From contig NC_015738.1 of NCBI RefSeq assembly GCF_000270285.1, positions 1,674,001-1,738,000 of the forward strand: 64,000 nucleotides of DNA, in the 5' to 3' direction. This document shows, piece by piece, positions 1,852-21,841 of this stretch (position 1 is the stretch's first letter; the number at the start of each line of letters is the position of its first letter). Source of the stretch: Eggerthella sp. YY7918 (GTDB lineage: Bacteria > Actinomycetota > Coriobacteriia > Coriobacteriales > Eggerthellaceae). The translations under genes were made by a program, and so were the position numbers. The notes below the pieces were generated by a model. The model was not told where the DNA came from. It made no database searches and saw only the letters and a list, made by a program, of their open reading frames with translations.

Positions 1852-1955
1852 GTAGACGCTTTATTCGTCTTTCCCAGAGTTGCGGTAGACATCCGGGCTG
1901 GAGTTGGCATCGTGTCCGTAGACGCTGGGACTGTTTTCAACACAGGAGCGTAGAC
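1852..1955. repeat. four GTAGAC motifs phased at about 33 bp
   Basis: GTAGAC occurs at 1852, 1885, 1918 and 1950, so the steps are 33, 33 and 32 bp (about three helical turns). Three copies are preceded by C, and two extend to CGTAGACGCT. Sequence between motifs is not conserved, so this is not a normal CRISPR array. It occupies the intergenic stretch downstream of hydF. It may be phased protein-binding sites or decayed transposon-end repeats. Confidence 0.5.
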
Positions 1956-1996
1956 AGCGGCATCAAGGCAGGGCGTCTCGCGCCCATCCCTCCGCC

Positions 1997-3337
1997 TCAG
2001 GCCGATCGCGCGCTACCTTCCATGACCTGCTCTGCAACCCACGGGAAGGCGCGGATAGAGCGCTCGAACACTCCCGTGCAGTAGGCGATCGTGAGGCCGT
2101 AGTTGGACACGGGGACGCCTGCCTCCACGCAGGCCCGAACCCTGGAGAGAACCTGGCGGCGCGTGAACATGCAACCCCCGCAGTGGATCACCAGATCGTA
2201 GTCGCCCAGGTTGGCGGGGAAGTCCGCCCCCCTCACGTTGTCGATGGTCAGGCCCTCCCCCACCCTCTTGCGCAGCAGGCGGGGGATCTTCACCGTCCCT
2301 ATGTCCTCCTCGATGGGGTGGTGCGTGCAGGCCTCGGCGATCAGGACGCGGGACTCCTCCGTGAGCCCGGCGATGGCGAGCGTGCCCATGGCCTGGGTGA
2401 GCAGGTCGCCCTTGTTGCGGGCAAACGCAACGGAGAACCCTGTTAACGGGATGCTGTCTGGCACCATGGCCGCAACGCTGCCGAAGGCTTGGGAATCTGT
2501 CACCACCAAGGCGGGGGGCTCCTCGAGAGCCGCTAGGGCTGCCGGCAGCTCGGTGTCCCGGACGCAAAGCGGGATGCAGCCGCCGTCGAGCAGGTCGCGT
2601 ATGGTCTGCACCTGCGGCAGGATGAGCCTTCCGCGCGGCGCCTCCTTGTCGATGGGGATCACGAGGACGACCACGGAGCCAGCCGGCACGATGTCGGAGA
2701 GGATCGCGGGGGCGTTCACGAAACCGTCGGGCGCGTTGTCGAGCAGCGCCTGCCTGAGCTCGGCGACGCCCTTGCGCTCAGATGCCGCCATGCAGACAGC
2801 CGGCAGGCCCCTGGCCGCCGCGGGGATACCCTCGCGGCACAGCTCCATCAAGCCGTCTGCCCCGCCGGCCGCATGCAGGGGCAGCAGGTCCGTTTTGTTG
2901 AAGACCAGGATGACGGGGATGCCCTCATCCTGCAGCTTGGCGAGGATGCGGTCCTCGTACGCCCCCCAGACTCCGGCCTCCGTCACGAGAACGCCCATGT
3001 CGCAGCGGCTGTACACCTGCTCGGTGCGCTCGATGCGCAGCCTGCCGACCTCTCCCTCGTCGTCGATGCCGGCAGTGTCGACGAAGAGAACGGGGCCCAG
3101 GGGCAGCAGCTCCATGGGCTTGTCCACAGGGTCCGTGGTGGTGCCGGCATAGTCGCTCACTATGCTTGCCTGCTGGTTCGTGATGGCGTTCAGCACGCTG
3201 GACTTGCCCACGTTGCGGCGCCCGAACAGGCCTATGCCCAGCCTCGAGCCCCGAGGCGCCCGCATCAGGGCGTCCCCGCTCTCGCGCACGCTTGTAGCCT
3301 CTGGGCGGCTGCCCTCCCGGCTCTCAGTCTTCACCAT
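1997..3337 (-). CDS. hydF: [FeFe]-hydrogenase H-cluster maturation GTPase HydF
   Basis: A 446-residue scaffold GTPase on which the 2Fe subcluster is assembled before transfer to apo-HydA. The N-terminal GTPase domain shows a P-loop (GRRNVGKSS), the switch DYAGTTTDP, DTAG and NKTD. The C-terminal domain carries the cluster ligands ACTHH and, about 50 residues later, HCGGC, the CxHx(n)HCxxC pattern that defines HydF. The ATG at 3337 is chosen because the longer open frame would overlap the end of hydE by more than 80 bp. It is the last gene of the equol/hydrogenase operon, after hydG and hydE, so all three maturases are present. Confidence 0.93.
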   Translation of the reverse strand: MVKTESREGSRPEATSVRESGDALMRAPRGSRLGIGLFGRRNVGKSSVLNAITNQQASIVSDYAGTTTDPVDKPMELLPLGPVLFVDTAGIDDEGEVGRLRIERTEQVYSRCDMGVLVTEAGVWGAYEDRILAKLQDEGIPVILVFNKTDLLPLHAAGGADGLMELCREGIPAAARGLPAVCMAASERKGVAELRQALLDNAPDGFVNAPAILSDIVPAGSVVVLVIPIDKEAPRGRLILPQVQTIRDLLDGGCIPLCVRDTELPAALAALEEPPALVVTDSQAFGSVAAMVPDSIPLTGFSVAFARNKGDLLTQAMGTLAIAGLTEESRVLIAEACTHHPIEEDIGTVKIPRLLRKRVGEGLTIDNVRGADFPANLGDYDLVIHCGGCMFTRRQVLSRVRACVEAGVPVSNYGLTIAYCTGVFERSIRAFPWVAEQVMEGSARSA

Positions 3338-3393
3338 GGTATCCGCTCCAATCGTGTCAGTCCCCTTCGCGGGCGCTCCTGGGCGGGGCGTGC

Positions 3394-4455
3394 TCAGCCC
3401 ACCAGGGAGTCCCCGCGACCGACGACGAGCTCGTATCCGATGCGTGCCATCCGCGCCTGCAGGCAGAACCTGCACTCGGCTGCCTCCTCGCCGGTGCTGA
3501 GCTTGTTGTCATAGAGGTCGTAGTCCTTCCTGTGCTCGACCGGCGAGAGGTTGGGCATCACCACGTTGGCGCCGGACAGGATGCCCTGTTCCCTGCCCTT
3601 CGGGTCGATGGTGCCGAGCGCGGTTGTCGCCGGGATCAGCGCCTTGGGATGCGCGAGCCTCAGGCACGCGAGCATGAAGAGCGTAAGCTCGAGGCTGCCG
3701 GCCTGTTCACCTGCGTACATGGTGTGGCGGTGCGGGATGAACGGCCCGATGCCGATCATGTGGGGCTGCAGGTAATGCAGGAAATCCATGTCGCGCGCAA
3801 GCTGCTCTGCGGTCTGCCCCGGCGAGCCCACCATGAAGCCGCTACCCACCTGATAGCCGATCTCGCGCAGGGTGAAGAGGCACTTGTGCCTTCGGAAGGG
3901 ACTCATCTCCTGCGGGTGCAGGCTCTTGTAGTGCAGGTGGTCGGCGGTCTCGTGGCGCAGCAGGTAGCGCCCCGCCCCGGCGTCGAAAAGTGCCTGGTAG
4001 CTCTCGCGGCTGCGCTCCCCCATTGAAAGCGTGATGGCGCAGTCGGGGAAGGCCCCGTGGATCCGGGCGACCAGCGGCACTAAGCGCTCGTCGCTGAAGA
4101 AGAGATCCTCCCCGCCTTGAAGCACGAAGGTCCTGAAACCAAGCTTGTAGCCCTCCCTGCAGCACGCCATGACCTGCTCGTCGCTCAGCCTGTAGCGCAC
4201 CGCGTTGTTGTTCGAGCGGCGGATGCCGCAGTAATAGCAGTTGTTCTTGCAGTAGCTCGAGAGCTCGATGAGGCCGCGGGTGTATACCTTGCGGCCGTAG
4301 TGCTCGTCTCGCACCGCGCGGGCCCGCTCGCGGATGCAGGCGGCGCTCTCCGGGGTCCTGCCCCCGATGAGCTCCACCCACTCCCCTTCTTCGAGCCTCC
4401 GCTGCTCCTCCAGCTTGTCGATGAGCTGCTGCTGCCTCCTCAGCGCGTCTGACAT
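3394..4455 (-). CDS. hydE: [FeFe]-hydrogenase maturation radical SAM enzyme HydE
   Basis: A radical SAM TIM-barrel protein of about 353 residues. It has the CxxxCxxC cluster motif (CKNNCYYC, near residue 70), the family segment VLQGGED, and a C-terminal BATS-type region around NVVMPNLSP. HydE acts after HydG in building the dithiomethylamine ligand of the H-cluster. The start could be the GTG at 4461 or the ATG at 4455; the ATG has a GGCGGG sequence just upstream. It begins about 10 bp after the hydG stop and is surely co-transcribed with it. Confidence 0.93.
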   Translation of the reverse strand: MSDALRRQQQLIDKLEEQRRLEEGEWVELIGGRTPESAACIRERARAVRDEHYGRKVYTRGLIELSSYCKNNCYYCGIRRSNNNAVRYRLSDEQVMACCREGYKLGFRTFVLQGGEDLFFSDERLVPLVARIHGAFPDCAITLSMGERSRESYQALFDAGAGRYLLRHETADHLHYKSLHPQEMSPFRRHKCLFTLREIGYQVGSGFMVGSPGQTAEQLARDMDFLHYLQPHMIGIGPFIPHRHTMYAGEQAGSLELTLFMLACLRLAHPKALIPATTALGTIDPKGREQGILSGANVVMPNLSPVEHRKDYDLYDNKLSTGEEAAECRFCLQARMARIGYELVVGRGDSLVG

Positions 4456-4465
4456 GAGCACCCGC

Positions 4466-5890
4466 CTAGAACCTCAGATCCCTCGCGCCGCCCCTGATGG
4501 CGTCGAGGTTGCGCAGGAGCTGCCCGCGCATCCTCGACTGCCTGATGGTGGGGCTCTCGAGCTCGCGCTCCACGAGCGCCTCGCCGGCCTCGCGCACCGC
4601 AGGCGACGCGTAGTCGATGAGGTACTCCTCGAGGGTCATGAGGGCGTTGGGGTGGCAGAAGGCGGAAATCTGCTCTGCCTTGCACACCTCCATGAAGCGC
4701 TCTCCCTGGCGCCCCGCGCGGTAGCAGGCGGTGCAGAAGCTGGGGATGTAGCCCAGCTCGATGAGCCAGCCCATCACCTCGTCGAGCGAGCGGTTGTCGC
4801 TCACCTCGAACTGGCTCGTGCTCGAGTCCTCGGGCTCCGGCTCCAGGTAGCCGCCCACGCTCGTGCGCGAGCCTCCGCTGATCTGCGAGACGCCCAGCTC
4901 GAGTAGGCGCTCCCGGCACGCCCTGCTCTCGCGCGTGGAGACGATCATGCCGGTGTAGGGCACGGCGATGCGGATGCAGGCGACGATTTTCATGAAGGCG
5001 TCATCCGGCACGCCGTTGTCGAAGGCGCCTGGGTCGATGTCGTCTGCCCTGCGGATGCGCGGGACGCTGATGGTGTGGGGACCCACCCCGAAGGCGGCCT
5101 CCAGGTGCTCGGCGTGCATGAGCAGCCCCGCGAACTCGTAGTCGTAGCCCTCGAGGCCGAAGAGAACGCCCAGGCCGACGTCGTCGATGCCGCCTTGCAT
5201 GGCGCGGTCGTGCGCCTCCGTGTGCCAGGCGTAGTCGTGCTTGGGGCCGCTGGGGTGCAGCCGCTCGTAGCTCTCGCGGTTGTAGGTCTCCTGGAACAGG
5301 ATGTAGGTGCCGATCTCGGCCTCTTTCAGCCTGCGGTAGTTCTCGACCGTGGTGGCGGCGATGTTGACGTTGGCGCGGCGGATCGAGCCATTCTCGTGCT
5401 TGACGGAGTAGATGGTCTCAAGGCTCTCGAGCACGTACTCGATGGGGTTTTCCACGGGGTGCTCGCCCAGCTCGATGGCCAAGCGCTTGTGCCCCATGTC
5501 CTGAAGGGCGCGCACCTCGGCGGCGATCTCCTCCTGCGTGAGCTTCTTGCGCGGGATGTGCCTGTTCTGGGCGTGGTAGGGGCAGTACACGCAGCCGTTG
5601 ACGCAGTAGTTTGAGAGGTACAGCGGGGCGAAGAGCACGATGCGGTTGCCGTAGTAGGCCTGCTTGATGTCGCGCGCGATCTGGAAGACCCTCTGCGTGC
5701 GCTCCTCGTCGTGGCAGGCGAGCAGGACGCTGGCCTCGCGGTGCGTCAGGCCCTTCATCTTGGATGCCTTCTCCAAGATCGCGTCGACGAGCGCCAGGTC
5801 CTGGGAGGCGCGCTCGGCGTACTCGAGCGTGTCGAGTATCTCCTGGTGGTTTATGAATTCGTCTGCATGGGGTGATGCTGCGTCGTACAT
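4466..5890 (-). CDS. hydG: [FeFe]-hydrogenase maturation radical SAM tyrosine lyase HydG
   Basis: A 474-residue protein that cleaves tyrosine to make the CO and CN ligands of the H-cluster. The radical SAM motif is CVNGCVYC (about residue 95). The C-terminal auxiliary cluster site is CTACYRAGRQGERF with a third Cys about 22 residues later, which separates HydG from ThiH. The start at 5890 has a good AAGGAAAGG ribosome-binding sequence. It lies between the NAD kinase and hydE in one operon. Confidence 0.94.
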   Translation of the reverse strand: MYDAASPHADEFINHQEILDTLEYAERASQDLALVDAILEKASKMKGLTHREASVLLACHDEERTQRVFQIARDIKQAYYGNRIVLFAPLYLSNYCVNGCVYCPYHAQNRHIPRKKLTQEEIAAEVRALQDMGHKRLAIELGEHPVENPIEYVLESLETIYSVKHENGSIRRANVNIAATTVENYRRLKEAEIGTYILFQETYNRESYERLHPSGPKHDYAWHTEAHDRAMQGGIDDVGLGVLFGLEGYDYEFAGLLMHAEHLEAAFGVGPHTISVPRIRRADDIDPGAFDNGVPDDAFMKIVACIRIAVPYTGMIVSTRESRACRERLLELGVSQISGGSRTSVGGYLEPEPEDSSTSQFEVSDNRSLDEVMGWLIELGYIPSFCTACYRAGRQGERFMEVCKAEQISAFCHPNALMTLEEYLIDYASPAVREAGEALVERELESPTIRQSRMRGQLLRNLDAIRGGARDLRF

Positions 5891-5920
5891 TGCCTTTCCT
5901 TCTCTCTACTCCAGGCGCCG

Positions 5921-6802
5921 CTATTGCATGAGGAAAACGTTTGAGAACCGCTTGTAGAAGCCCTCTCCCCGCTGTCGGAGGAGCTCTGCCGTCAGCGCGC
6001 TGTTGCGCACGCGCACTCTATCGACCGGCTGGCAGGGGGTCTGCAGCTCTCCGTCGAGCTGTATGGACGGGTCGTCTTCCAAGCCCTCCCTGCAGGGGCG
6101 CAGGTCGATGTCCACCCAATCGTCCTGCCCCGTGACAATAGGGCGCGAGGCGAGGGCGTGAACTGCGATGGGGACCACGAGAAGGCCCCTGTTCGAGGGG
6201 GCGACCACGGGGCCTCCGGCAGAGAGCGCATAGGCCGTCGACCCCGTCGAGCTCGCAACCACGACCCCGTCTCCGCGCAGGGTGGCGAGATGGCAGCCGG
6301 AGATGCCCACGGCGCACTCGAGGATGTTCGCGGAGGGCGCCCGGTTCACCGCGACGTCGTTGAGGGCGAAGAGCCTCTGCGGGTATGTTCCCTCGGCGCC
6401 ATGCTGCAGCTCGACTTCCAGGCAAGGGAGCTTCTCGACCTGGCATTCCCCGGCCAGGGCGGAATCTATGAGGGAGGTGTCGCTCGCATCCCCCCGGTTG
6501 GAGAGAAAGCCCAGGTGGCCGTAGTTCATGCCGAGGATGGGGATGCCGAGCAGGACCGCCAGGCGGGAGGCGCGCAGGATCGAGCCGTCTCCCCCGAGGA
6601 CAACCATGAAGGAGAACGCCTCGCGCAGGCGCGTGTCCTGCAGGATGCCGGGGCTCTCCGCGTGCACCTGCGCGCAGTCCGGCATCTCTTCCAAGGTCAT
6701 TGCCTCGAAGCTGTGGCGGCGCTTGCGGAGGTACGTGCACAGGCTCACCGCTGCCTGGCTTGCCCGCCTGTTCTTTTGGCAGTAGACGACGAGGACGCGC
6801 AT
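5921..6802 (-). CDS. nadK: NAD kinase (operon-borne copy)
   Basis: An enzyme of about 293 residues that phosphorylates NAD to NADP. The ATP-binding GGDGS motif is near residue 65, the NE/D-type motif appears as ALNDVAVNR, and the glycine-rich substrate loop as GDGVVVASSTGSTAY. The ATG at 6802 is preferred over 6832 because GGAAAGG lies eight bases before it. Bacteria usually carry a housekeeping nadK elsewhere; placement between hydrogenase and maturase genes suggests a dedicated NADP supply for the hydrogenase and the NADPH-dependent isoflavone reductases. Whether a second nadK exists cannot be seen in this window. Confidence 0.9.
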   Translation of the reverse strand: MRVLVVYCQKNRRASQAAVSLCTYLRKRRHSFEAMTLEEMPDCAQVHAESPGILQDTRLREAFSFMVVLGGDGSILRASRLAVLLGIPILGMNYGHLGFLSNRGDASDTSLIDSALAGECQVEKLPCLEVELQHGAEGTYPQRLFALNDVAVNRAPSANILECAVGISGCHLATLRGDGVVVASSTGSTAYALSAGGPVVAPSNRGLLVVPIAVHALASRPIVTGQDDWVDIDLRPCREGLEDDPSIQLDGELQTPCQPVDRVRVRNSALTAELLRQRGEGFYKRFSNVFLMQ

Positions 6803-6862
6803 TTCCGAGACCTTTCCGAGGACTTTGTACATTCGCAGCGGGGACGGCAGGGTTGGATGACC

Positions 6863-6885
6863 GCCCCCGACTGCGCTGCCGGGGC
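6863..6885 (-). other. intercistronic hairpin, hydA-nadK
   Basis: GCCCC at 6863-6867 pairs with GGGGC at 6881-6885 in the 170-bp gap between hydA and nadK. No U-tract follows, so RNA processing or stability is more likely than termination. Confidence 0.35.
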
Positions 6886-6975
6886 AGTCTTGTTGGGCGG
6901 CGGCACGCTGCGCCCGGAATGGCAGCGCACCGCGCGATGTGTCAAGGTGCCGTCAGCACGGCGGCAGCCGGGAGC

Positions 6976-8694
6976 CTAGATGGTCCACTCCTCCTGGTTG
7001 GTGTGGAGCCACTCGTGCGCAACATGCGAGAGGGGCTTCTCCAGGCAGGTCTTGTAGAGCTTCTGGATGTCCGGGTTGTCATGCGACATCCTCAGGCTGT
7101 CCTCGGCGTCGAGCTTGTCCAGCACGGCGGTGCGCTCCTTGGCGAGCTCCCTGTTGAAGCGGATGGGCTGGCCGCCGCCGCCAACGCAGCCGCCGGGGCA
7201 TGCCATGATCTCGACGAAGTCGTATGCGACCTCGCCGCTCTCTAGGGCGTTAAGCAACTTCTCGGTGTTTCCCAGGCCGCTTGCCACGGCGATCCTCACG
7301 GTCAGGCCGGCGGCGCTGAGCTCCTTCTCCATCCACGGATGTTCCGGCGTTGCGGCCGTGCAGTCGCAGGCCTCGAAACTCGCCGGGGCGCCCTCGAGGA
7401 TGCTGACGGCAGTGCGCAGAGCCGCCTCCATGACGCCGCCGGTGCGGCCAAAGATCGTTGCCGCGCCGGTGGACAGGCCCAGCGGGCTGTCGAAGTCGGT
7501 CTCCTCCAGGGCGGCGCAGTCGACGGAGAACATGCGCAGCATACGGTCGAACTCGCGCACGGTGAGGACGGCGTCGACATCCCGGCCGCCCTCTGTGGAG
7601 AGCTCGGGGACGTCGCACTCGTACTTCTTTGCAACGCAGGGCATGACAGAGACGCAGAAGATCCTCTTCTTCCCGCCTGCCTCGGCTGCCTCCCTGAGGG
7701 TGTTCTTGACAAGCGCGCCCATCATCTGGTGGGGCGACTTCGCGCTGGAGAGCTGTGGGACGATCTCCGGGTGATGCAGCTTGGCGAAGCGCACCCAACC
7801 AGGACAGCAGGAAGTGAACATGGGCCGGGGCTTGTCGCTCTTGACGAACTCGAGGAACTCGCTGCCCTCTTCCATGATGGTGAGGTCGGCGGCGAAGTCC
7901 GTGTCGAAGACCCGGTCGAAGCCCAGCGCCCTGAGCGCGCTCGCCATGCGCCCGGGGGTCGCCTGCTCGCGGCTGAGCTTGACGCCCTCGCCCCAGGCGG
8001 CGCGAACGGCGGGGGCAACCTGGACGACGGTCATGACCTCGGGGTCGAGGAGAGCGTCCAGCACCTTGTCGATGTCGCTGCGGGCGGTGAGGGCACCCGT
8101 GGGGCAGTGAGTGATGCACTGGCCGCACAGGGCGCAGCCCGCCTCGGAGATATCGAGCCCGTCTTTCACCGCGACGCTCGCGCCCGTGCCGGAACCGGAC
8201 GGCTCCCAGACGGCGCAATGCTGGACCTTCTCGCAGAATGCGACGCATCGCATGCACTTGATGCACTTGGAGGAATCCCTGATCAGCGGGAAGTCCTCGT
8301 TCCAGGCACCCTTGGCGGGCATGTCACAGGTGCTTTCCCCCACTGCGAAGTCCGCGGCCAGCTTGCGCAGGGCGCAGGTGTCGACCCTGGCGCAGGAGGT
8401 GCACTCGGAGCGATGGGAGTCGAGCAGCGCCTCCACGTTTGCGCGGCGCATGGCGGCCACCTGCGGGGTGTCCGTCCTCACCTCCATGCCCTCGCGAACG
8501 GGGGTGCTGCAGGCTGCGCAGGGGGCCTCCTCCCCCTCCACCTGGACCAGGCAGACGCGGCACGATCCGATGATGTTGAGGTCCTTCAGCGCGCACAGGG
8601 TGGGGATCTTGATCCCAAGCCCCGCCGCGGCGTCGAGGATGGTGGAGCCCTCGCTGGCGGAGGTCTCTCGTCCGTCAATGCTGAGCTTTACCAT
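6976..8694 (-). CDS. hydA: [FeFe]-hydrogenase catalytic subunit (HydA/HndD type)
   Basis: A 572-residue group A hydrogenase of the M3 domain layout. It has an N-terminal [2Fe-2S] domain (C34, C45, C48, C62), a His-Cys [4Fe-4S] site (H94, C98, C101, C107) and two [4Fe-4S] sites (C144-C154 and C187-C197). The H-cluster motifs are TSCCPGW (294-300), MPCVAKKYE (351-359) and MACPGGC (497-503). All cluster ligands and the proton-transfer Cys297 are present, so it should be active and cytoplasmic. The start overlaps the upstream fusion gene by seven bases, suggesting translational coupling and a stable complex. The hydrogenase would supply reductant from H2, in line with the known stimulation of equol formation by hydrogen. 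Confidence 0.95.
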   Translation of the reverse strand: MVKLSIDGRETSASEGSTILDAAAGLGIKIPTLCALKDLNIIGSCRVCLVQVEGEEAPCAACSTPVREGMEVRTDTPQVAAMRRANVEALLDSHRSECTSCARVDTCALRKLAADFAVGESTCDMPAKGAWNEDFPLIRDSSKCIKCMRCVAFCEKVQHCAVWEPSGSGTGASVAVKDGLDISEAGCALCGQCITHCPTGALTARSDIDKVLDALLDPEVMTVVQVAPAVRAAWGEGVKLSREQATPGRMASALRALGFDRVFDTDFAADLTIMEEGSEFLEFVKSDKPRPMFTSCCPGWVRFAKLHHPEIVPQLSSAKSPHQMMGALVKNTLREAAEAGGKKRIFCVSVMPCVAKKYECDVPELSTEGGRDVDAVLTVREFDRMLRMFSVDCAALEETDFDSPLGLSTGAATIFGRTGGVMEAALRTAVSILEGAPASFEACDCTAATPEHPWMEKELSAAGLTVRIAVASGLGNTEKLLNALESGEVAYDFVEIMACPGGCVGGGGQPIRFNRELAKERTAVLDKLDAEDSLRMSHDNPDIQKLYKTCLEKPLSHVAHEWLHTNQEEWTI

Positions 8695-10526: not shown

Positions 10527-10546
10527 GGTGTCGGGCACCTTCCTCT

Positions 10547-12162: not shown

Positions 12163-12260
12163 CGTTCCTCCAATCAGTAAGACACGCGCTTTGCCGGAAC
12201 AACAATCCATGAGGTCCATATCCTGCATGCGTACCGGCTTCGCATGTTGCCCTCAGTCGA

Positions 12261-12305
12261 CGGGCCGGAGGCGCGGCGCAGCTGCTTGCCCGCTCCTCCG
12301 GCCCG
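12261..12305 (-). other. long intercistronic hairpin, DZR-fixC
   Basis: CGGGCCGGAGG at 12261-12271 and CCTCCGGCCCG at 12295-12305 form a perfect 11-bp stem in the 200-bp gap between the DZR stop-side and fixC. There is no U-tract on the operon strand. It probably stabilises or punctuates the polycistronic RNA. Confidence 0.5.
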
Positions 12306-12363
12306 TTTGGTCAGAAGCGCCTCAAATCAAGGGTGTGGGTCCTTGGCTTCAGCGCCGTGTTGG

Positions 12364-14298
12364 CTACAGGTTGCAGCCAGCGAGGTAGCCCTCGTGGACA
12401 GCGTCCATGACCATGCGGGAGGCCTTGCAGTCGCCGATGCCGATGACCCTGACGTCCTCGCACTTCTCCTCGATCTGGGCGCGGAACTGGTTGAAGGTCG
12501 GGACGAAGCCAGAGGAGATGATTGTCTGGTCGACGTCCAGGGTCTCCAGGCCGCGGGGGCCGGCGAACATGGGCTTGCCGTCCTTGACGGCGACGAGCTG
12601 GGTGGAGGGCTTGATCGTGACTCCCGCCATACCCAGGCGAACCATGTAGGCGATGCCCATGACGCCGGGGACGAAGAACTCCGGGGAGCGGGTGGTGATG
12701 GTGACATCCTTGCCCCGCTCCTCCGCGAGGATCAGCGCGGTCTCGGCGCCCACGATGCCACCGCCGACAACGACGACCCTGTCGGCATCGCTCTTGCAGT
12801 CGTTGTCCAGGAAGTCCATCGCGTACACGACGGAGGGGTCGTCCTGGCCGTCGATGTTGAGGTTGCGCACGGTGGCGCCGCAGGCGACGATGGCGACGTC
12901 GAAGCCGCCGGCTACAACGGTGTCTGCAGTGGCCTCCTCGTAGATGACCTCGATGCCCTCCTTCTTGAGCTGGGTCTCGTAGTAGGTGATGAGGCGGCCG
13001 AGGTCCTCCTTGCTGTCGGAGACGGTAGCCTCCTTCAGAACGCCACCGATCTTGCGCTTCTCGTAGATGGTGACGTCATGGCCGCACTTCTTCGCGGTGA
13101 TGGCAGCCTCGCAGCCAGCGGGGCCTGCGCCGATGATGATGACCTTCTTGGGAACCTCAGCCTGCGGGTAGACGGGTTCGTCGAACTTGTACAGGGCCGC
13201 GTTGACGGCGCACTGGACGACGCCGCCGGAGAGCATGCCGCGGTCATGGCAGCCGACGCCGCAACCGATGCAGGGCCTGATGTCCTCAGGACGCCCCTCA
13301 GCTGCCTTCTTGGCCCACATGGGGTCGGCGAGCGCGGGCTTGCCGATGCCGATGAAGTCGCAGACGCCGTCCTCGAGCAGCTTCTCGCCGATCTCGGGGG
13401 AGTAGATGCCGCCGCACAGCATGGTGGGGATGCTAACAGCGTCCTTGATCATCTTCGCTGCCTCGACGTGGTTGGCGCCGTGCTTGGAGAGCAGGCCGGC
13501 CGCGTTTATGACCTCTGCATGGGAACCCCAGGTGATGTTGATGGCGTCCGCACCGGCTGCCTCGCACATCTTGGCGACCTCGCAGGTCTCCTCGATGGTG
13601 ATGCCGTCCGGTTCGAAGTCGATGCCGGAGAGTCGGATAGCCAGCGGGAGGTTGGGGCACTTCTTCTTGATGTCGCGGATGACCTCGAGCAGGAAGCGGG
13701 CGCGGTTGTGCAGGCTTCCGCCGTACATGTCGTTACGGGTGTTGTTGCGCGGCGAGAGGAAGTTGCTCAGCAGGACGCCGCATGCCGCGTGGACGTCGAC
13801 GATTTCGAAGCCCGCGGTCTGCGCGCGGAGTGCGCAGTCGCCGAAGTAACCGACGAAGTCGTGGATCTCCTCGATGGTGAGCTCGCGGGGAACAGCGCCG
13901 CCGTTCTCGTACCAGGGCTCCCACTGGATGCGGGAAGAGGAGATCAGGTCGTCACCGCGCACGAACGCCGCGTCGCGGCCCGGGTGGACGATCTGCAGGC
14001 CGGGGATGGCCCCGTGCTGCTTGATGGTCTTTGCGAGGACGGACATGGGGCCGATGTAGTTGTCGCTGGCCAGGGACAGTCCGACATGGTGGAACTGGGT
14101 CACGCCGGCGTTGTCCATGAACACGATGCCGGTTCCACCGTCGGCAGCCTCAGCGTACGCCTTGAAGGAGGCCCAGCTGGGAGAGCCGTCCGGGTTGCCC
14201 AGCTCGGTGCCCATCGGCATGCGGATCGCTCGGTTCTCGACCTCTAGGTTGCCGATGTAGCCGCGCTCGAAGGTCTTCGGATAGAACTTGTTCTTCAT
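12364..14298 (-). CDS. dzr: daidzein reductase (DZR), OYE/BaiCD-type flavoenzyme
   Basis: A 644-residue NAD(P)H:flavin oxidoreductase with an FMN-binding Old Yellow Enzyme barrel, a [4Fe-4S] site (CIGCGVGCHDRG) and a C-terminal FAD/NAD(P) domain (GAGPAGCEAA, GGGIVGAETA), the layout of 2,4-dienoyl-CoA reductase and BaiCD. Length and sequence match my memory of the Slackia daidzein reductase, which reduces daidzein to dihydrodaidzein using NADPH. Its neighbours DDR, TDR and the racemase support that assignment over a generic enoate reductase. The start at 14298 follows a GGAG sequence. Confidence 0.9.
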   Translation of the reverse strand: MKNKFYPKTFERGYIGNLEVENRAIRMPMGTELGNPDGSPSWASFKAYAEAADGGTGIVFMDNAGVTQFHHVGLSLASDNYIGPMSVLAKTIKQHGAIPGLQIVHPGRDAAFVRGDDLISSSRIQWEPWYENGGAVPRELTIEEIHDFVGYFGDCALRAQTAGFEIVDVHAACGVLLSNFLSPRNNTRNDMYGGSLHNRARFLLEVIRDIKKKCPNLPLAIRLSGIDFEPDGITIEETCEVAKMCEAAGADAINITWGSHAEVINAAGLLSKHGANHVEAAKMIKDAVSIPTMLCGGIYSPEIGEKLLEDGVCDFIGIGKPALADPMWAKKAAEGRPEDIRPCIGCGVGCHDRGMLSGGVVQCAVNAALYKFDEPVYPQAEVPKKVIIIGAGPAGCEAAITAKKCGHDVTIYEKRKIGGVLKEATVSDSKEDLGRLITYYETQLKKEGIEVIYEEATADTVVAGGFDVAIVACGATVRNLNIDGQDDPSVVYAMDFLDNDCKSDADRVVVVGGGIVGAETALILAEERGKDVTITTRSPEFFVPGVMGIAYMVRLGMAGVTIKPSTQLVAVKDGKPMFAGPRGLETLDVDQTIISSGFVPTFNQFRAQIEEKCEDVRVIGIGDCKASRMVMDAVHEGYLAGCNL

Positions 14299-14328
14299 GA
14301 TTGCTCCAATTCAAGATGGGTCTGCCTT

Positions 14329-14347
14329 CCCCTGAGACAAGCAGGGG
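14329..14347 (-). other. intercistronic hairpin, membrane protein-DZR
   Basis: CCCCTG at 14329-14334 pairs with CAGGGG at 14342-14347 with a seven-base loop, in the 70-bp gap before dzr. Confidence 0.4.
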
Positions 14348-14370
14348 TATTGAGGCACCTTGATAGGTTG

Positions 14371-14871
14371 TTAGTGCTGCTGTGCCTTTTCAGCCTTTGC
14401 GGGATTGAAACCGGAGAGTACAGCCGAAAGCGCCATGAAGGGCTTGACGAGCACGAATACGGCGATGATTGCCGCAATCTCAACAAAGCCAGCCCAGGTT
14501 GCGAAGCCGCCGAGGAACGCACCGATGCCGTCGGGCAGGTTGTTGATGAGCATGTTCCCACAGAGGATGAACATGCCGAAGTATGTGCCCAGGACAATAG
14601 CCTGGATGATCCAAGTGACGAAGCCGTTCGCCTTGAGAGCCCCTGCGATTTTGAGAGCCCAGCCCATCGGGTCGCCGATGCTGCCCACCGTGTAGCCGAT
14701 GACGAAGCTTGAAACCCAGCTTGCGATAACGGCCTCCGGCGTGATGACGTTCATGCCCACCTGCATGCAGACGGCGATGTTGATAGCGAGAGTGATGGTG
14801 ATGCCAATAACGATGTTCATCAAGATATTCATCCACTCACCAAAGCCCTGAGGACCTTTGAACTTGCTCAT
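14371..14871 (-). CDS. equol-cluster integral membrane protein of unknown function
   Basis: A 166-residue protein with four predicted membrane helices (around residues 15-35, 45-65, 85-105 and 120-145). The short termini are polar and the C-terminus is Lys/Ala-rich. The start at 14871 has a strong GGGAGGAA site. I do not recognise a family with confidence; the fold resembles small DUF2798-like or transporter-like proteins. It sits between ddr and dzr inside the isoflavone operon, so uptake of isoflavones, equol export or membrane anchoring of the electron-transfer complex are reasonable guesses, none shown by the sequence. Confidence 0.75.
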   Translation of the reverse strand: MSKFKGPQGFGEWMNILMNIVIGITITLAINIAVCMQVGMNVITPEAVIASWVSSFVIGYTVGSIGDPMGWALKIAGALKANGFVTWIIQAIVLGTYFGMFILCGNMLINNLPDGIGAFLGGFATWAGFVEIAAIIAVFVLVKPFMALSAVLSGFNPAKAEKAQQH

Positions 14872-14989
14872 TTCCTCCCCAATCCTTTCTGTAAATCGCG
14901 TTTCTCCAAGCAAAACCGAGGCCGAGGGGCGCCCTTACATGGAATTGCGCCCCTGCCTTGTTAGCCTCAGTCGTGCGGTCAGGGACCGA

Positions 14990-15850
14990 TTAGACCTCGA
15001 TCTCGCCCTGCATGCCGCCGGTCACAGCGCCGGCGCAGCCGCCGTCGACGGGGATGTTGGCAGCGGTGATCTGGCGGGACTCGTCGGATGCCAGGAACAG
15101 GTAGGCGTAGGCGATGTCCATCGGGTCGACAGCCTGCTGGGTGGTCTGGGCTGCGACCAGGCCGCTTGCCATCTCCTTGGGGATGTTGGACATGGCCTCG
15201 GTCCAGACCAGGCCCGGGGTGACGGAGTTGCAGCGGATGCCGAAGGGGCCGCCCTCAGCGGCGAGCTGGCGGGCCAGGGACAGGCAGGCGCCCTTGCAGG
15301 CAGCGTGGCAGGCCTGAGGGGAGTTGCTGCCCTGGAGGCCGACGGTGGAGGAGGTGATGATGATGGAGGCGCCGTCTGCCTTCTGCAGGTAGGGCCATGC
15401 GCAGTTGCAGACGTTGTAGACGAGGTCGAGCTCGTTCTTGACGCCGTAGTTCCAGATCTCCGGGGTCATCTCGCCGAAGGGGGCCATGCCGGGGTGGGAC
15501 GCGTTGTTGATGACGACGTCGATGCCGCCCATGAGCTCGGCGCACTCCTCAACCCACTTCTTCACGGCGTCGTAGTCAGACAGGTCGACGTCCATGCCGG
15601 CGGCCTGGTAGCCCTTGGCCTTCAGCTCGTCGGCGACGGAGGCTGCCACGCCGGGGGTGCGGCCGGAGCCGCAGACGAAGGCGCCGTGTGCGCACAGCAG
15701 CTCCTGGGTGACCCTGCCGACGCCCTTGGTGGTGCCGGTGAGCAGGATCTTCTTGCCCTTCAGGCGCTGGCCGACGGACTCCTCGGGGGAGATCCACTTG
15801 CCGAACACGGGTGCGCCGGGCATCTTGGGGACTTTGACTTCCTGTGCCAT
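14990..15850 (-). CDS. ddr: dihydrodaidzein reductase (DDR), short-chain dehydrogenase
   Basis: A 286-residue classical SDR. An N-terminal extension of about 35 residues precedes the cofactor motif GTTKGVG. NNAS and the catalytic Ser in ITSSTVG follow. At the usual YxxxK position it reads CHAACKG, so the catalytic Tyr is replaced by His while Lys is kept. It reduces the ketone of dihydrodaidzein to tetrahydrodaidzein with NADPH in characterised equol producers. It matches my memory of the Slackia enzyme and lies directly between tdr and the membrane protein. Confidence 0.9.
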   Translation of the reverse strand: MAQEVKVPKMPGAPVFGKWISPEESVGQRLKGKKILLTGTTKGVGRVTQELLCAHGAFVCGSGRTPGVAASVADELKAKGYQAAGMDVDLSDYDAVKKWVEECAELMGGIDVVINNASHPGMAPFGEMTPEIWNYGVKNELDLVYNVCNCAWPYLQKADGASIIITSSTVGLQGSNSPQACHAACKGACLSLARQLAAEGGPFGIRCNSVTPGLVWTEAMSNIPKEMASGLVAAQTTQQAVDPMDIAYAYLFLASDESRQITAANIPVDGGCAGAVTGGMQGEIEV

Positions 15851-15940
15851 GGTTGGTTCCTTTCCTTGTCTTGGGCCGTCTTCCTTTGCAGCCCATCTTT
15901 GGCTCGCAAAATGCGGGCTCATGTCCTAGTGAGGAGACGA

Positions 15941-15971
15941 TGCAGTGCAGCCTAGTCAGGATTGCACTGCA
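15941..15971 (-). other. intercistronic hairpin, tdr-ddr
   Basis: TGCAGTGCA at 15941-15949 and TGCACTGCA at 15963-15971 form a perfect nine-base stem in the 145-bp gap between tdr and ddr. No terminator U-tract. Confidence 0.5.
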
Positions 15972-15995
15972 GCGCCATGCCATTGAGGCAGGGTG

Positions 15996-17456
15996 CTACA
16001 TAGTGGAGATCGCGTGGCGGGCGGCGATGCGTCCGGAGGTGTGGGCGAAACCGTTTGCTGCGCCGGGAACCTCCATGTTGTAGGAGTCGCCGTAGAGACC
16101 CGTGGCGTCCAGACCGACCGCGTAGAGACCGGGAATGGCGTTGTAGTCGGCGTCGACGACCTGCATGTTGCCGTTAATGCGGATGCCGCCAGCAGAACCC
16201 ATGGTGCCGGTAGCCAGAGGGATGGCATAGAAGGGACCCTCGACCATCGGGCGGAGGTACTGGGGCTTCTTCATAAAGGCGTCGTCGTAGCCCTTCTCGC
16301 ATGCCTCGTTGTAGTCGGCCATAGTTGCGACGAAGGTGTCTACAGGCACGTCAATGAGGGCTGCGAGCTCCTCGAAGCTGCCAGCCTTCTTCACCAGGCC
16401 GGACTCGAGATGAGCCTCGAGCTCGATAGGGAGGCGCTCCATCGGCTTGTGGTACACGACGAACTCGCCGATCGCGATCTCGGAACCCTCGGCCACCAGA
16501 CGGTCGATGTCCGCCTGGGAGAGGATGGACCAGACCACGCCGCCGGGCTGCTTGCCGTAGTAGGTTCCGATGTCGCCGATGTTCTCGGCAACGGACTCGG
16601 CCGCGAAGCGCCTGCCGGTCTTGTTGATCCACACGCCGGGGTTGACGCCCGCGCCGCCGACCTGGGAGTCCATGGTCATGTCACGGCCGCCTGCTGCGAG
16701 AATCGGGCAGGTGGTGATGTAGGTGGGGTCTGCGCCCGCGGAGAGGGCGAGGTCGAGGCCGTCGCCGACGTTCTGCAGCGGGGTGAGGGTGTTCATGTTG
16801 TAGGCAGCGGGGGCGAACCAGCTGTACTTGAAGATGCGCTCCGGGCTGGAGCCCATGCCGCCGGTTGCCAGGATAACGGCCTTGCCGCCGACGCGCAGGG
16901 GCTCGCCGTCAGACTCTGCGACGACACCGACGACAGCGCCTTCCTCGATGATGAGCTCCTTGGCGGGGGTGGAGGTGAAGATGTCGACGTCGAGCTTCTG
17001 GATGGCGTCGAGCAGGACTTCCTGGCAATGGGCGCCGAGGCCCTCGGGCAGATGGAAGGTCCAGACCTCGTTGGGGTCGTCCTCTGCGGCGATGTCGCAG
17101 GCCTTGTAGACGACGCCGAGGTCGCGGTAGATGTCGATGGTCTCTGCGGAGTTCTCAACGAAAGCGCGGACGACGTCGTAGTTCGCGCGCTGATGGCTGT
17201 AGCCCATGAACTTCTCGATGCCCTCCTGCTTGGTCGGGAAGTGGTACTTGGAAAGACGCGGGGTGCCGAGCTCGTTCTGAATAGAGGACTCGAAGGCAGC
17301 GGTGCCTTCGGCGTACATGGAGAGGCCTCCGGTCTCGGGCATCTTCTCGAGCACCACGACGCGCTTGCCCTCACGGGCGGCGATCAGCGCTGCAGACTTT
17401 CCAGAGGCGCCTCCTCCAACGACAACAAGATCATACTCAACATCGAATTGTGCCAT
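15996..17456 (-). CDS. tdr: tetrahydrodaidzein reductase (TDR), FAD flavoprotein
   Basis: A 486-residue soluble flavoprotein of the fumarate reductase/succinate dehydrogenase superfamily. The FAD motif is GGGASGKSAA at the N-terminus and the second FAD region is GTMGSAGGIRING, ending in NGFAHTSGRIAA. It has no signal peptide, haem or FMN-binding domain, so it needs an external electron donor, and EtfAB is encoded directly upstream. In equol producers it converts tetrahydrodaidzein to S-equol, the last step. It matches my memory of the Slackia enzyme in length and sequence. Confidence 0.9.
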   Translation of the reverse strand: MAQFDVEYDLVVVGGGASGKSAALIAAREGKRVVVLEKMPETGGLSMYAEGTAAFESSIQNELGTPRLSKYHFPTKQEGIEKFMGYSHQRANYDVVRAFVENSAETIDIYRDLGVVYKACDIAAEDDPNEVWTFHLPEGLGAHCQEVLLDAIQKLDVDIFTSTPAKELIIEEGAVVGVVAESDGEPLRVGGKAVILATGGMGSSPERIFKYSWFAPAAYNMNTLTPLQNVGDGLDLALSAGADPTYITTCPILAAGGRDMTMDSQVGGAGVNPGVWINKTGRRFAAESVAENIGDIGTYYGKQPGGVVWSILSQADIDRLVAEGSEIAIGEFVVYHKPMERLPIELEAHLESGLVKKAGSFEELAALIDVPVDTFVATMADYNEACEKGYDDAFMKKPQYLRPMVEGPFYAIPLATGTMGSAGGIRINGNMQVVDADYNAIPGLYAVGLDATGLYGDSYNMEVPGAANGFAHTSGRIAARHAISTM

Positions 17457-17487
17457 GGTTTCCTCCTTCTTGGGAGTCTGATTTTCA

Positions 17488-17516
17488 CCGCTGCGTCGGC
17501 GAATCCGGCGCAGCGG
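17488..17516 (-). other. intercistronic hairpin, etfA-tdr
   Basis: CCGCTGCG at 17488-17495 pairs with CGCAGCGG at 17509-17516, extended by CGG/CCG inside. It lies in the 110-bp gap between etfA and tdr with no strong U-tract. Confidence 0.5.
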
Positions 17517-17567
17517 TATCGTCTAAGTGAATCGATCGAGTGCTGGATAAGCCCTGATCGTGCGCTG

Positions 17568-18482
17568 CTAGGCGCCTTTGATCGCTGCGGTCAGGACGGG
17601 GATTATCTCCTTCACGTCGCCTACGATGCCATACGCACACTCGCGGAAGATGGAAGCCTCCGAATCGTTGTTGACGGCGACGATGACCTTGGCTCCGCGA
17701 ACGCCGGTCATGTGCTGGGGCGCCCCGGAGGAGCCGAGGGTCAGGTACAGGCGAGGAGAGATTTTCTGGGTGGAGGTTCCGACCACGCGGTCGTGCTCGA
17801 ACCAGTGGTAGTTGTCGCACAGGGGCAGCGTGCAGGCGACCTCGGCGCCGAGAGCTGCGGCGAGCTCCTCAACCAGGGCGAGGTTCTCCTTGGCTCCGAT
17901 TCCCAGTCCCACGCCGACGACTTTCTCTGCGGTCAGCAGGCCGTTGGAGGCACACCCGTCACAGTTAGTGGCAAGCACGGTGAGAGAATCGAGCGCGCTA
18001 GCGCTCCCCGTGGCAACCTCAGCGGCCGCGCCTGCATCGGCCTCGTCCCCGCCGTCGGCAACGATGCAGACGGCGGGGCCGGATGTCTCAAGGACCTGCA
18101 CGGCAGCCGCATCGGCGACAAGGCGCTCGACGACCGTTTTGCCCTCTGAGACGCTGACGCTGGTAACCGCGGCGGCGACCGCTGCGGAGAGCTTCACGGC
18201 GATGGCGCCGGCGATGGCGCGGGCGGTGGCGTCGTCCGAACAGAGCACCGCTGCGGGCTGCTCCTGGGCAGCCCTATCCGCAATCGCGGGGGCGAGCGCC
18301 TCGGCGAGAGTGGCGCTGGTATCGTACAGGGTCACCGATGCGGGGCCGAGCGCGGCAACGGCGTCTGCACGGCTTGCGTCGCCGAAGACCAGAGCCTCGT
18401 AGGGCGCGCCGCTCTTGGATGCGACGTCGGCCACGTGGGCGGCGCTCATGTCATCGGCCACCAGAATCCAAACTTTGCTCAT
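17568..18482 (-). CDS. etfA: electron transfer flavoprotein alpha subunit (FixB type)
   Basis: A 304-residue protein. The C-terminal FAD domain is recognisable from GTSTQKISPRLYLTLG, then GAPQH and VNND, ending in a YGIVGDVKEIIPVL-type tail, which defines EtfA. The N-terminal half is rich in Ala. Its start codon follows the etfB stop with no gap (TAG then ATG). With EtfB it forms the heterodimer that takes electrons from NADH and hands them to FixC/FixX or directly to TDR; the exact route in equol formation is inference. Confidence 0.9.
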   Translation of the reverse strand: MSKVWILVADDMSAAHVADVASKSGAPYEALVFGDASRADAVAALGPASVTLYDTSATLAEALAPAIADRAAQEQPAAVLCSDDATARAIAGAIAVKLSAAVAAAVTSVSVSEGKTVVERLVADAAAVQVLETSGPAVCIVADGGDEADAGAAAEVATGSASALDSLTVLATNCDGCASNGLLTAEKVVGVGLGIGAKENLALVEELAAALGAEVACTLPLCDNYHWFEHDRVVGTSTQKISPRLYLTLGSSGAPQHMTGVRGAKVIVAVNNDSEASIFRECAYGIVGDVKEIIPVLTAAIKGA

Positions 18483-19205
18483 CTACAGCACCCCCTCGGA
18501 CTTGAGCGCAGCGACGAGCTGGTCGACAGCTGCCTGCGGGTCCGATCCGTCAAAGATCTTCGAAGGCTGGGCATCGGGCTCGTGGGTCCCGCCCACGGTG
18601 AAGGTAGCTGCGCCTTCGGTCTGCGCGCCAACCCTCTCAACCGGCTTCTTCCTAGCTACGAGGACAGCTCGCATACCGGGCTTGTTCTCCTCCTCGCGGC
18701 GGGCTGCGACGGCCAAGACAGCGGGGCCCTCGACGGCGATGTCCTGGGTGCCTGCGCCGAAGCGGCGGGTCACGACGAGCTTGCCGCCCTCCCTCTTTGC
18801 TGCATCGACTGCGTTGATGCAGGGCCAGCCAAGCAGACCGGCCAGCAAGCTCGGAACCATGGGCTGCCAGATGCAGTCACCGATGGCCACGAGGTCGACA
18901 CCCTCGACACCCTTGACGGCGTTTGCCAGCGCAGAGGCCAGCTCGGTGGGCTGAGCGAGGATGTCCACGCCCTGGACCGCCACGGTGGTCTCGATGCCGC
19001 GGGCAGCGCCAAAGGCGACGTCGCCGCTGTCCATCGTGACGCCCGTCACGTCGCCATCTCCGGCAGCGTCGAGCGCTACCTGGATAGCGGCGTGGTCGTC
19101 GTCCCCCACCTCGGGGCGATCGGCAAGCCACTTGACGGCTCCGTCTGCACCCACCCGCTCGTCTGTGGGGTTCATTGCCCATTTGAATACTGCGACAGTG
19201 GTCAT
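18483..19205 (-). CDS. etfB: electron transfer flavoprotein beta subunit (FixA type)
   Basis: A 240-residue EtfB with a typical nucleotide-binding layout (VAVFKWAMNP at the start, then the DHAAIQVALDAA and GTQDIAVEGPAVLAV segments). It lies 15 bp after the racemase gene and directly abuts etfA. FixA-type EtfB proteins bind the bifurcating FAD together with EtfA. Its position at the head of the operon shows that electron supply is built into the pathway. Confidence 0.88.
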   Translation of the reverse strand: MTTVAVFKWAMNPTDERVGADGAVKWLADRPEVGDDDHAAIQVALDAAGDGDVTGVTMDSGDVAFGAARGIETTVAVQGVDILAQPTELASALANAVKGVEGVDLVAIGDCIWQPMVPSLLAGLLGWPCINAVDAAKREGGKLVVTRRFGAGTQDIAVEGPAVLAVAARREEENKPGMRAVLVARKKPVERVGAQTEGAATFTVGGTHEPDAQPSKIFDGSDPQAAVDQLVAALKSEGVL

Positions 19206-19220
19206 GGTCTCACCGCGCCC

Positions 19221-19697
19221 TTACTTTGCGTCCCAGTCGCAGACGTCAGTCCAATCAACGCCCATGTCGAGGGCAACCTGGATAGCAGCGCCATTTGCAT
19301 CGGGGAACTCGTTGACGGCGATCTCCAGGTTGTGGGTGGCAGGCTGCGGGGGGAAGATCATCTCGCGGAACTTGCCGTGGTTGAACTCGACGGCAGGGGT
19401 CAGGCCCAGGGATGCGAAGTGCTCCTTGGCGGCGTCGAAGTCGTCGACGCGCATGGCGATGCCGCTGATGCCCTCGCCTACGGTCTGCAGGGCCTTGTAA
19501 GCGCCGATGGCGTCGTGGTCGTGCATGGGTGCCATGACCTCGATGCCGCCGGACTTGGGCAGTGCGACGCGCAGACCCATGTGCTCGTCGTCGTAGGGGC
19601 CGTAGAATGTCACCCCCAGAAGCTTATTCAGGTCCTCAACTGCCTTGTCGGCATCTGCAGCGCGCAAAGCGATGCGGTTGAGCTGTGCCTTGATCAT
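19221..19697 (-). CDS. ddrc: dihydrodaidzein racemase (VOC/glyoxalase superfamily)
   Basis: A 158-residue protein of two glyoxalase-like repeats, similar to methylmalonyl-CoA epimerase (ALRAADADKAVEDLNKLLG at the start, a second repeat near IAMRVDDFDAAKEHF, acidic metal ligands such as the E in NLEIAVNE). In equol producers such a protein interconverts R- and S-dihydrodaidzein so that DDR receives the right enantiomer; size and setting fit. It is the first gene of the operon, about 270 bp from the regulator's terminator, so the operon promoter should lie in 19700-19960. Confidence 0.88.
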   Translation of the reverse strand: MIKAQLNRIALRAADADKAVEDLNKLLGVTFYGPYDDEHMGLRVALPKSGGIEVMAPMHDHDAIGAYKALQTVGEGISGIAMRVDDFDAAKEHFASLGLTPAVEFNHGKFREMIFPPQPATHNLEIAVNEFPDANGAAIQVALDMGVDWTDVCDWDAK

Positions 19698-19879
19698 CCT
19701 TCACTCTCCTTTCGAATGAGCTTTCGCGCGGGCTGCCGGCTTTTGCCGAGCCTGCGTTCTTCGAGCTCAATTTTCCGGGGAAGCGCTGGTTCCGTGAGTA
19801 TCCCCTGAGTGACGAACGAATACTCTTGCGTAGTCGGATGGGTACTGCTTGGAGATGCCATCAGGGCCGCGTTGCGATA

Positions 19880-21838: not shown

Positions 21839-21841
21839 CTA

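Follow-up and report, generated by a model that had tools for sequence, protein, structure and literature searches.

Layers of separate history and a possible two-branch electron supply in the equol operon of Eggerthella sp. YY7918

Equol is relevant to health and is made by the gut bacteria of only some people. In Eggerthella sp. YY7918, whose genome is a single 3,123,671-bp contig, the genes for equol formation lie in a run of 15 genes, all on the minus strand, at positions 1997-19697 of the stretch that we analysed (64,000 nt of NC_015738.1, positions 1,674,001 to 1,738,000; hereafter the window, whose coordinates are used throughout). In the order of transcription, Pfam and NCBIfam profiles together with tblastn synteny identified a racemase, EtfB, EtfA, tetrahydrodaidzein reductase (TDR), dihydrodaidzein reductase (DDR), a small hydrophobic protein (TM), daidzein reductase (DZR), FixC, FixX, a GltD-like oxidoreductase, HydA, NAD kinase, HydG, HydE and HydF, with intergenic gaps of -7 to 201 bp. 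The locus raises the question of how so many electron-transfer genes came to stand beside four isoflavone enzymes, and which of them feed the reductases. An earlier note on this DNA had read the run as one inherited chain from H2 or NADH to equol, built around a bifurcating Etf. Its gene list proved correct: the four isoflavone enzymes of a complete pathway (racemase, DZR, DDR, TDR) were all found by profiles or synteny, as were, on the same strand, EtfAB-FixCX, an [FeFe]-hydrogenase with its partner, three maturases and NAD kinase.

The run is the published nadK-type equol cluster of Eggerthella sp. YY7918 and Slackia equolifaciens (PMC8898433, PMC8618169), and the cluster, its electron genes and its transfer are already known. 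Our best model, to which we give an even chance, is an operon of layers with different histories and two electron branches. A first, cross-phylum layer would consist of EtfB-EtfA and a TDR-type FAD reductase, often joined by FixCX and a short-chain dehydrogenase (SDR); a second would hold the isoflavone specialists DZR, racemase, DDR and TM; a third would be the GltD-like/HydA block with its maturases.

EtfAB accompanies TDR across phyla

TDR (15996-17456) matched Pfam FAD_binding_2 with 185 bits, and this FAD domain was the only one that Pfam found in it. Upstream of it lie the FixB-like EtfA (17568-18482; Pfam ETF_alpha, 85.5 bits), in which PDB alignments support an FAD-binding domain, and the FixA-like EtfB (18483-19205; Pfam ETF), whose nucleotide-binding loop was three residues short in our loop comparison. 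Among 138 genomes of the family Eggerthellaceae, a TDR-type gene (E ≤ 1e-90) was found in 13 and a short-loop-type EtfB (E ≤ 1e-15) in 15, including all 13. FixC homologues (E ≤ 1e-60) were present in 82 of the 138 genomes, so FixC is no special mark of these clusters.

A search of named genomes with two short peptide patterns returned at least 45 loci, which is a lower bound. At 41 of them the gene was of TDR type at ≥43% identity, with 11 loci in Eggerthellaceae and 30 outside, in Gracilibacteraceae, Desulfosporosinus, Sporomusa, Pectinatus, Erysipelotrichaceae, Sodalis, Martelella, Bifidobacteriaceae, Cellulomonas and others. For the outside loci with at least 2.5 kb of sequence upstream and 3 kb downstream (n = 22), we detected EtfB and EtfA in 19 and FixC in 15. 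Where 8 kb downstream could be read (n = 15), a GltD-like gene was found at none and HydA at one (L093, 41% identity; L and G numbers are our handles for loci and genomes).

The phylogenies of the two partners were compared in trees of 25 rows each, the loci being hand-chosen to span the groups. The ten equol-type TDRs formed one clade (support 100/99), and the EtfB+EtfA tree mostly agreed with the TDR tree. The exception was G122 (RUG13381), in which equol-type EtfBA-FixCX (67-72%) adjoins a different SDR (32%) and TDR (44%). Both halves of this conflict, which rests on one 7.9-kb contig of a metagenome-assembled genome (MAG), were significant in the approximately unbiased (AU) test (EtfAB inside the equol clade, p = 2.4e-13; TDR outside it, p = 1.3e-6). 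The distribution and the trees suggest that TDR was inherited together with EtfAB, and not with the hydrogenase.

A broader proposal, which we make tentatively and place a little short of even, is that EtfB-EtfA-TDR, together with an SDR and FixCX or with a small membrane protein, would be an unrecognised cross-phylum carrier system for reductive dehydroxylation, in which a short-loop, one-flavin Etf is dedicated to TDR. The equol operon would then be one specialised branch, perhaps split off before Eggerthellaceae, onto which the hydrogenase would have docked repeatedly. In the literature searched we found no paper pairing tetrahydrodaidzein reductase with an electron transfer flavoprotein and, for equol and termites, none of the matches listed was on equol genes by title.

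Some loci showed other combinations. Three Gracilibacteraceae MAGs (L092, L093 and L094) carry SDR-EtfB-EtfA-TDR followed by a TM homologue (32-34%), and no FixCX was found there; TM might serve as an alternative membrane partner in such loci. Slackia sp. ZJ119 (L053) has an EtfAB-FixCX-TDR-like cluster with GltD-like, HydA, HydG and HydF genes and without DZR or racemase. Adlercreutzia sp. ZJ304 (L056) has an EtfAB-FixCX-TDR-like cluster, again without DZR or racemase, adjoined by large open reading frames (ORFs) that by eye resemble molybdopterin oxidoreductases.

The Etf has a shortened loop and lacks bifurcation markers

The second flavin of a bifurcating Etf is held by the loop DGDTxQVG, which reads DGDTAQVG in LctB, CarD and Etf-Bcd in our sequence alignment. 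Neither this loop nor any of the motifs RxGV, GxxSPTxV and RPxFGG, published as markers of bifurcating Etf group 2 (PMC10734219), was matched in the window EtfAB. Across 54 loci with a short-loop-type EtfB (some genomes counted more than once), DGDTxQVG was found in 0 of 54 EtfB and RPxFGG in 0 of 54 EtfA. As positive controls served the second Etf pairs located 3' of FixCX in L104 (8874-10717) and L091, which have the loop motif, RxGV and RPxFGG. Of 39 EtfB sequences, 38 have a nucleotide loop of 24 residues and one a loop of 25; that of E. coli FixA has 27.

By its sequence, the window Etf is not of the bifurcating kind. It belongs to the same family as the group-2 proteins CarDE, LctBC and Etf-Bcd, and FixABCX quartets elsewhere are known as bifurcating, but it lacks DGDTxQVG, RxGV and RPxFGG. 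The "Etf bifurcation module" of the earlier note is not supported, as the informative group-2 markers are absent and the EtfB loop is three residues short. L104 and L091 themselves have a bifurcating-type EtfB-EtfA beside the short-loop EtfAB-TDR set, that is, two Etf types per cluster.

FixC (10849-12162) carries both the ETFQO_UQ-bd domain (32.2 bits, cut-off 27.7) and the FAD domain expected of an ETF:quinone oxidoreductase, and the ferredoxin-like FixX is encoded at 10547-10855. Compared with the E. coli fixABCX and ydiQRST products, the window FixC is 45% identical to FixC and 48% to YdiS (209/435), and FixX is 47% identical to YdiT, whereas EtfB reaches just 26% to FixA and 28% to YdiQ, with the loop three residues shorter than that of FixA.

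The hydrogenase block appears as a separate layer

HydA (6976-8694; Pfam Fe_hyd_lg_C, 293.9 bits) is the catalytic subunit of an [FeFe]-hydrogenase. It shows the H-cluster motifs L1-L3 (TSCCPGW, MPCVAKKYE and MACPGGCVGGGGQP) and accessory Fe-S domains, scores as group A (TIGR02512, 430.8 bits, cut-off 405.95) and stays below the NCBIfam cut-off for group A6 (681 vs 765 bits). Among 26 HydA sequences compared, L1 was present in all 26 and L2 and L3 in 25. Its partner, a GltD-like NAD(P)H oxidoreductase (8688-10526), is a protein of ∼612 aa starting near 10526, with a NuoF-type 4Fe-4S domain and without the FMN domain of HydB/NuoF (Pfam NADH_4Fe-4S, Fer4_20 and Pyr_redox_2; PRK12771, 610.7 bits; PDB alignments). 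Neither a NuoF/HydB FMN subunit nor NuoE/HydC was found in the run by ORF list and Pfam, which places the enzyme outside group A3, and a HydABC-type bifurcating hydrogenase was rejected for the same reason. The pairing of HydA with a GltD-type partner resembles HydDB group A2, whose rule is a GltD-type protein immediately downstream and no NuoF (PMC5037454). It differs from that group in that the partner lies directly upstream of HydA and has the NuoF-type 4Fe-4S domain. The maturases HydG (4466-5890; TIGR03955, 843.3 bits), HydE (3394-4455; TIGR03956, 549.3 bits) and the GTPase HydF (1997-3337; TIGR03918, 506.8 bits) all exceed the curated NCBIfam cut-offs; the HydF start is uncertain (GTG at 3475 or ATG at 3337).

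Within the family, HydA (E ≤ 1e-80) was detected in 65 and HydG (E ≤ 1e-100) in 35 of the 138 genomes, and DZR (E ≤ 1e-100) in 9. Blocks of GltD-like, HydA, HydE, HydG and HydF genes with no equol genes on the stretch read were found at L050, L052, L132, L136 and L138, all from genomes that had no DZR match. The seven HydA sequences from equol-cluster genomes did not form one clade in a 24-sequence HydA tree, and forcing them into one cost 565 log-likelihood units (AU p = 1.15e-27). This test left out the HydA of G109, which has a long branch in the 26-row tree, and included that of G127, in which the hydrogenase genes (on L062) and the equol genes sit on different contigs and need not be neighbours. 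The closest HydA relatives of Adlercreutzia mucosicola (G003) and G127 in the 24-sequence tree came from non-equol genomes of the same genus. Similarly, the tree of the GltD-like protein (26 rows) needed five label changes, at least four of them forced by well-supported branches. These results suggest that the hydrogenase block is a separate layer, widespread in the family, that became linked with the reductases on more than one occasion.

Another GltD-like/HydA pair (74% and 67% identical) lies at 438.6-442.1 kb of the window genome (L046:12586-16130). No maturase homologue was found on the 20-kb stretch read around it, and the HydG of the cluster is the only HydG above the family cut-off in this genome. 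The second HydA, if active, probably depends on the maturases of the equol island. The congener G062 has neither HydA (E ≤ 1e-80) nor HydG (E ≤ 1e-100). In six other genomes (G113, G116, G117, G118, G119 and G124) a HydA of 71-72% identity was present and no HydG was found at E ≤ 1e-100, HydE and HydF not being part of that search; these could be hydrogenases without a HydG maturase, or reflect assembly gaps.

The cluster has moved as a block and its parts have been exchanged

The relationship to S. equolifaciens DSM 24851 (G098) is very close. DNA identity is 99.4% over 1593-14415 and 98.8% over 14991-23230, with 98-100% in the 200-bp windows of the cluster outside TM, and gene set, gene order, nadK insertion and hydG-E-F order are the same. 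In line with this, PMC8618169 names YY7918 among the known equol producers and describes a nadK insertion (EGYY_15680) and a hydG/hydE interchange shared by the two organisms, both of which are found in the window. PMC8898433 likewise reports fixABCX, nad_oxb, hndD, hydEFG and nadK in equol clusters as well as horizontal transfer of the nadK version. The comparison of synteny that the earlier note had recommended indicates that the block moved between the window genome and S. equolifaciens. The G+C content of the cluster is 65%, compared with 55% in 26301-64000. That the three reductases might be only distant relatives of the equol enzymes is ruled out by their protein identity to those of S. 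equolifaciens (DZR 99.5%, DDR 99.3%, TDR 98.8%).

The clusters of A. mucosicola and Slackia isoflavoniconvertens (G102) share a common backbone with the window (racemase, EtfBA, TDR, DDR, TM, DZR, GltD-like, HydA and the Hyd maturases), but are without nadK and have the maturases in another order; that of S. isoflavoniconvertens is also without fixCX. The racemase (19221-19697; dihydrodaidzein racemase, DDRC; glyoxalase fold, Pfam Glyoxalase_4) is 100% identical to that of S. equolifaciens and 49-91% identical to those of six other clusters.

The three genes downstream of TDR encode DDR (14990-15850), a short-chain dehydrogenase (Pfam adh_short_C2, 150 bits), TM (14371-14871) and DZR (12364-14298), of the Old Yellow Enzyme (OYE)/2,4-dienoyl-CoA reductase type (Pfam Oxidored_FMN, 158.7 bits, and Pyr_redox_2). 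TM is small and hydrophobic and probably sits in a membrane; the Pfam profile search gave no match, and PMC8898433 terms the gene a predicted membrane protein. TM alone differs strongly from S. equolifaciens (42% aa identity, neighbours 98.8-100%), whose TM is another allele, 65% identical to that of S. isoflavoniconvertens. Against G096, DNA identity was 90-99% over ∼12201-15800 (DDR, TM and DZR), 78-92% over TDR and 51-83% elsewhere (windows with at least 100 aligned bases). At fourfold-degenerate sites, identity to G096 was 92% for DZR, 91% for TM, 75% for DDR, 56% for TDR and 40-60% for the other genes. Since constraint on the protein cannot by itself account for 92% identity at silent sites, the sequences indicate that single parts of the equol operon were exchanged separately and that the reductase block is itself a mosaic. 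In S. isoflavoniconvertens, moreover, DDR and TDR are 86-87% identical to those of the window, yet DZR only 44%. An uncultured Slackia (G109) has racemase, EtfAB, TDR, DDR, TM, GltD-like and HydA genes; no DZR was found between its TM and GltD-like genes, the best match genome-wide being 32%.

Other members are patchily distributed. The NAD kinase (5921-6832), in which both the N- and the C-terminal domain were found (NAD_kinase 46.8 bits, NAD_kinase_C 82.5 bits), is present in two of the seven equol-type clusters in which its place is visible, three further clusters being cut by contig ends. The fixCX genes are present in six of ten clusters, missing from three and not visible in one. Of the "one inherited module" in the earlier note, the transfer as a block with S. 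equolifaciens stands; the shared history is not supported, given the separate past of HydA and its GltD-like partner, the patchy nadK and fixCX and the mosaic reductases.

A relative of the cluster in Clostridia

The equol cluster has been described as restricted to Eggerthellaceae (PMC8898433). For DZR this agrees with our data: at E ≤ 1e-120 it was detected in 9 of 395 genomes of the order, all within that family and identical with the nine counted above, including G021 (40% identity), which had no TDR match at E ≤ 1e-90. The part of the cluster without DZR appears, from sequence comparison, not to be so restricted. In the Gracilibacteraceae MAG Ct408_bin101, a single MAG of unknown completeness, two contigs (L082 and L087) agree in 119 terminal bases and, when joined, encode racemase (58%), EtfB (48%), EtfA (47%), TDR (63%), DDR in two parts (63% and 56%) and TM (32%). 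Its racemase is closer to that of the window than is the A. mucosicola racemase (49%), and the block branches next to the equol clusters in the TDR and the EtfB+EtfA trees (midpoint root). No true DZR was found in this MAG, the best match being 34%. Contamination is made less likely by the TDR also carried on L087 that shares 79-89% identity with TDRs from other Gracilibacteraceae MAGs.

Among the 73 genomes of that MAG's order, only Ct408_bin101 and G209 gave a racemase homologue (E ≤ 1e-15). The G209 locus (G209:C74; L142:4510-8522) consists of a racemase with a truncated frame, EtfB and EtfA (45-58%), then HydA (42%), without TDR. It is perhaps a decayed copy and is not used as evidence here.

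Two possible electron branches and the alternatives

In the first branch of our model, the loss of three loop residues would leave EtfAB probably with one FAD, as an electron shuttle without bifurcation. Electrons would pass from menaquinol, or another donor to FixCX, through FixC/FixX and EtfAB to TDR, which would take off the 4-hydroxyl of tetrahydrodaidzein. In the second, GltD-like/HydA would most likely couple H2 to NAD(P)+ and, with NAD kinase, provide NADPH for DZR and DDR; we infer both the electron direction and the NADP preference of the GltD-like protein. DZR and DDR are reported to need NADPH, and in the excerpts of the same papers TDR is not named as NADPH-dependent (PMC12645574, PMC9281934). 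A predicted supply of H2 to the pathway is plausible, and H2 was reported to stimulate equol formation in a mixed culture (PMC3965542). For the FixC-EtfAB branch there is a lead from E. coli with four equol genes, in which a transposon driving ydiS went along with a daidzein use of 90%, compared with ∼27%, and a higher equol yield per cell (PMC5994542). Whereas ydiS is described in PMC8898433 as distantly homologous to fixA, in our comparison YdiS is a FixC homologue. The ydiS effect is a lead, and no proof.

Several observations weigh against the model. The authors of PMC5994542 read the ydiS effect as equol resistance, and tolerance alone could raise the yield. FixCX is missing from the clusters of G071, G102 and G109 and so cannot be the sole feed. 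Three outside loci (L084, L100 and L103) have a TDR-type gene without an Etf pair nearby. On the Etf side, RxGV strings did occur in 8 of 54 EtfB and 4 of 54 EtfA; GxxSPTxV was unmatched in the control pairs too (SPT only), which makes this pattern uninformative; and E. coli FixA/FixB and the other Etf pairs of the window genome also lack the group-2 motifs. The motif test therefore says "not group 2", and the shortened loop is the best mark. On the hydrogenase side, the AYRRR motif of the GltD-like protein fails to separate NADP from NAD in PDB alignments. Finally, E. coli given the four enzymes and none of the electron genes of the cluster forms equol, with 98% yield when NADPH regeneration was added (PMC9281934), and so do lactic acid bacteria that carry equol genes (PMC12645574). 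EtfAB-FixCX and the hydrogenase are therefore not indispensable in those hosts.

The heterologous results also favour the strongest alternative, an unlikely one that we nevertheless take seriously, namely that the four enzymes suffice and that Etf, hydrogenase, maturases and NAD kinase are co-expressed hitch-hikers serving redox balance or Fe-S maturation. It would fit the free-standing hydrogenase blocks of relatives and the presence of two HydA but one HydG above cut-off, that of the cluster, in the window genome, which leaves the other hydrogenase as a possible client of these maturases; PMC8898433 raises the possibility that they mature other pathway enzymes. It does not sit well with the EtfB that occurs in 13 of 13 TDR-type genomes and neighbours TDR at 19 of the 22 outside loci, nor with Adlercreutzia equolifaciens, in which all 13 cluster genes were reported to be daidzein-enhanced and co-transcribed, with four expression patterns (PMC6566806).

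We consider it rather improbable that the hydrogenase runs in reverse, releasing excess electrons as H2 in the absence of isoflavones, or that it acts as a buffer for the NADPH pool. The sequence does not fix the direction, and HydDB lists group A2 as of "undetermined role" (PMC5037454), but in the mixed culture mentioned above H2 was reported to stimulate equol formation and daidzein likely to divert H2, which points to uptake (PMC3965542). Least probable is a single co-inherited chain from H2 or NADH to equol with a bifurcating Etf, since near-identity to S. equolifaciens argues only for movement as a block, whereas the HydA clade test, the DDR-TM-DZR tract shared with G096 (as opposed to the windows outside both this tract and TDR), the missing bifurcation markers and the absence of any detected FMN or NuoE subunit from the run all count against it.

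Flanking genes and limits of the shared DNA

A LuxR-type regulator (20030-20809, minus strand; Pfam GerE, 56.8 bits), the probable regulator of the cluster, lies 5' of the racemase, and a homologue occupies the same position in eight other genomes (G098, G096, G071, G003, G069, G102, G109 and G070). Between it and the run is a 12-pair terminator-like hairpin (19994-19967), which is weak evidence: 1500-21300 contains 10 terminator-like sites, compared with a shuffle mean of 9.4.

DNA related to S. equolifaciens (93-98%) reaches leftwards to genome position 1671283, which is ∼2.7 kb outside the window. On the right it ends at window position 24974, with an IS3-type transposase gene (25004-26209, minus strand) 30 bp beyond. 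Near this right limit is a gene for a DUF1016/YhcG-type PD-(D/E)XK nuclease (22946-24118, minus strand). On the left, ∼0.6 kb (999-1592) is not present in S. equolifaciens, and at 1319-1690 on the plus strand a C-terminal fragment of an FAD reductase, recognised by eye and without a Pfam match, adjoins an IS3-like transposase fragment.

Implications for equol producers

As far as our literature searches show, five points are new: that the hydrogenase has a history of its own, that a short-loop Etf clade accompanies TDR across phyla, that single genes were exchanged within the operon, that a relative exists in Clostridia, and that YdiS is a FixC homologue in the context of equol. Some engineered equol strains are reported to have low efficiency (PMC8898433). 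If it is true that a dedicated EtfAB, and not NADPH, feeds the last step, adding EtfAB-FixCX would be a direct way to improve production, for which the link between ydiS and FixC is an existing experimental lead. Producers may also vary in how far they depend on H2, as is suggested by the separate histories of their reductases and hydrogenase.

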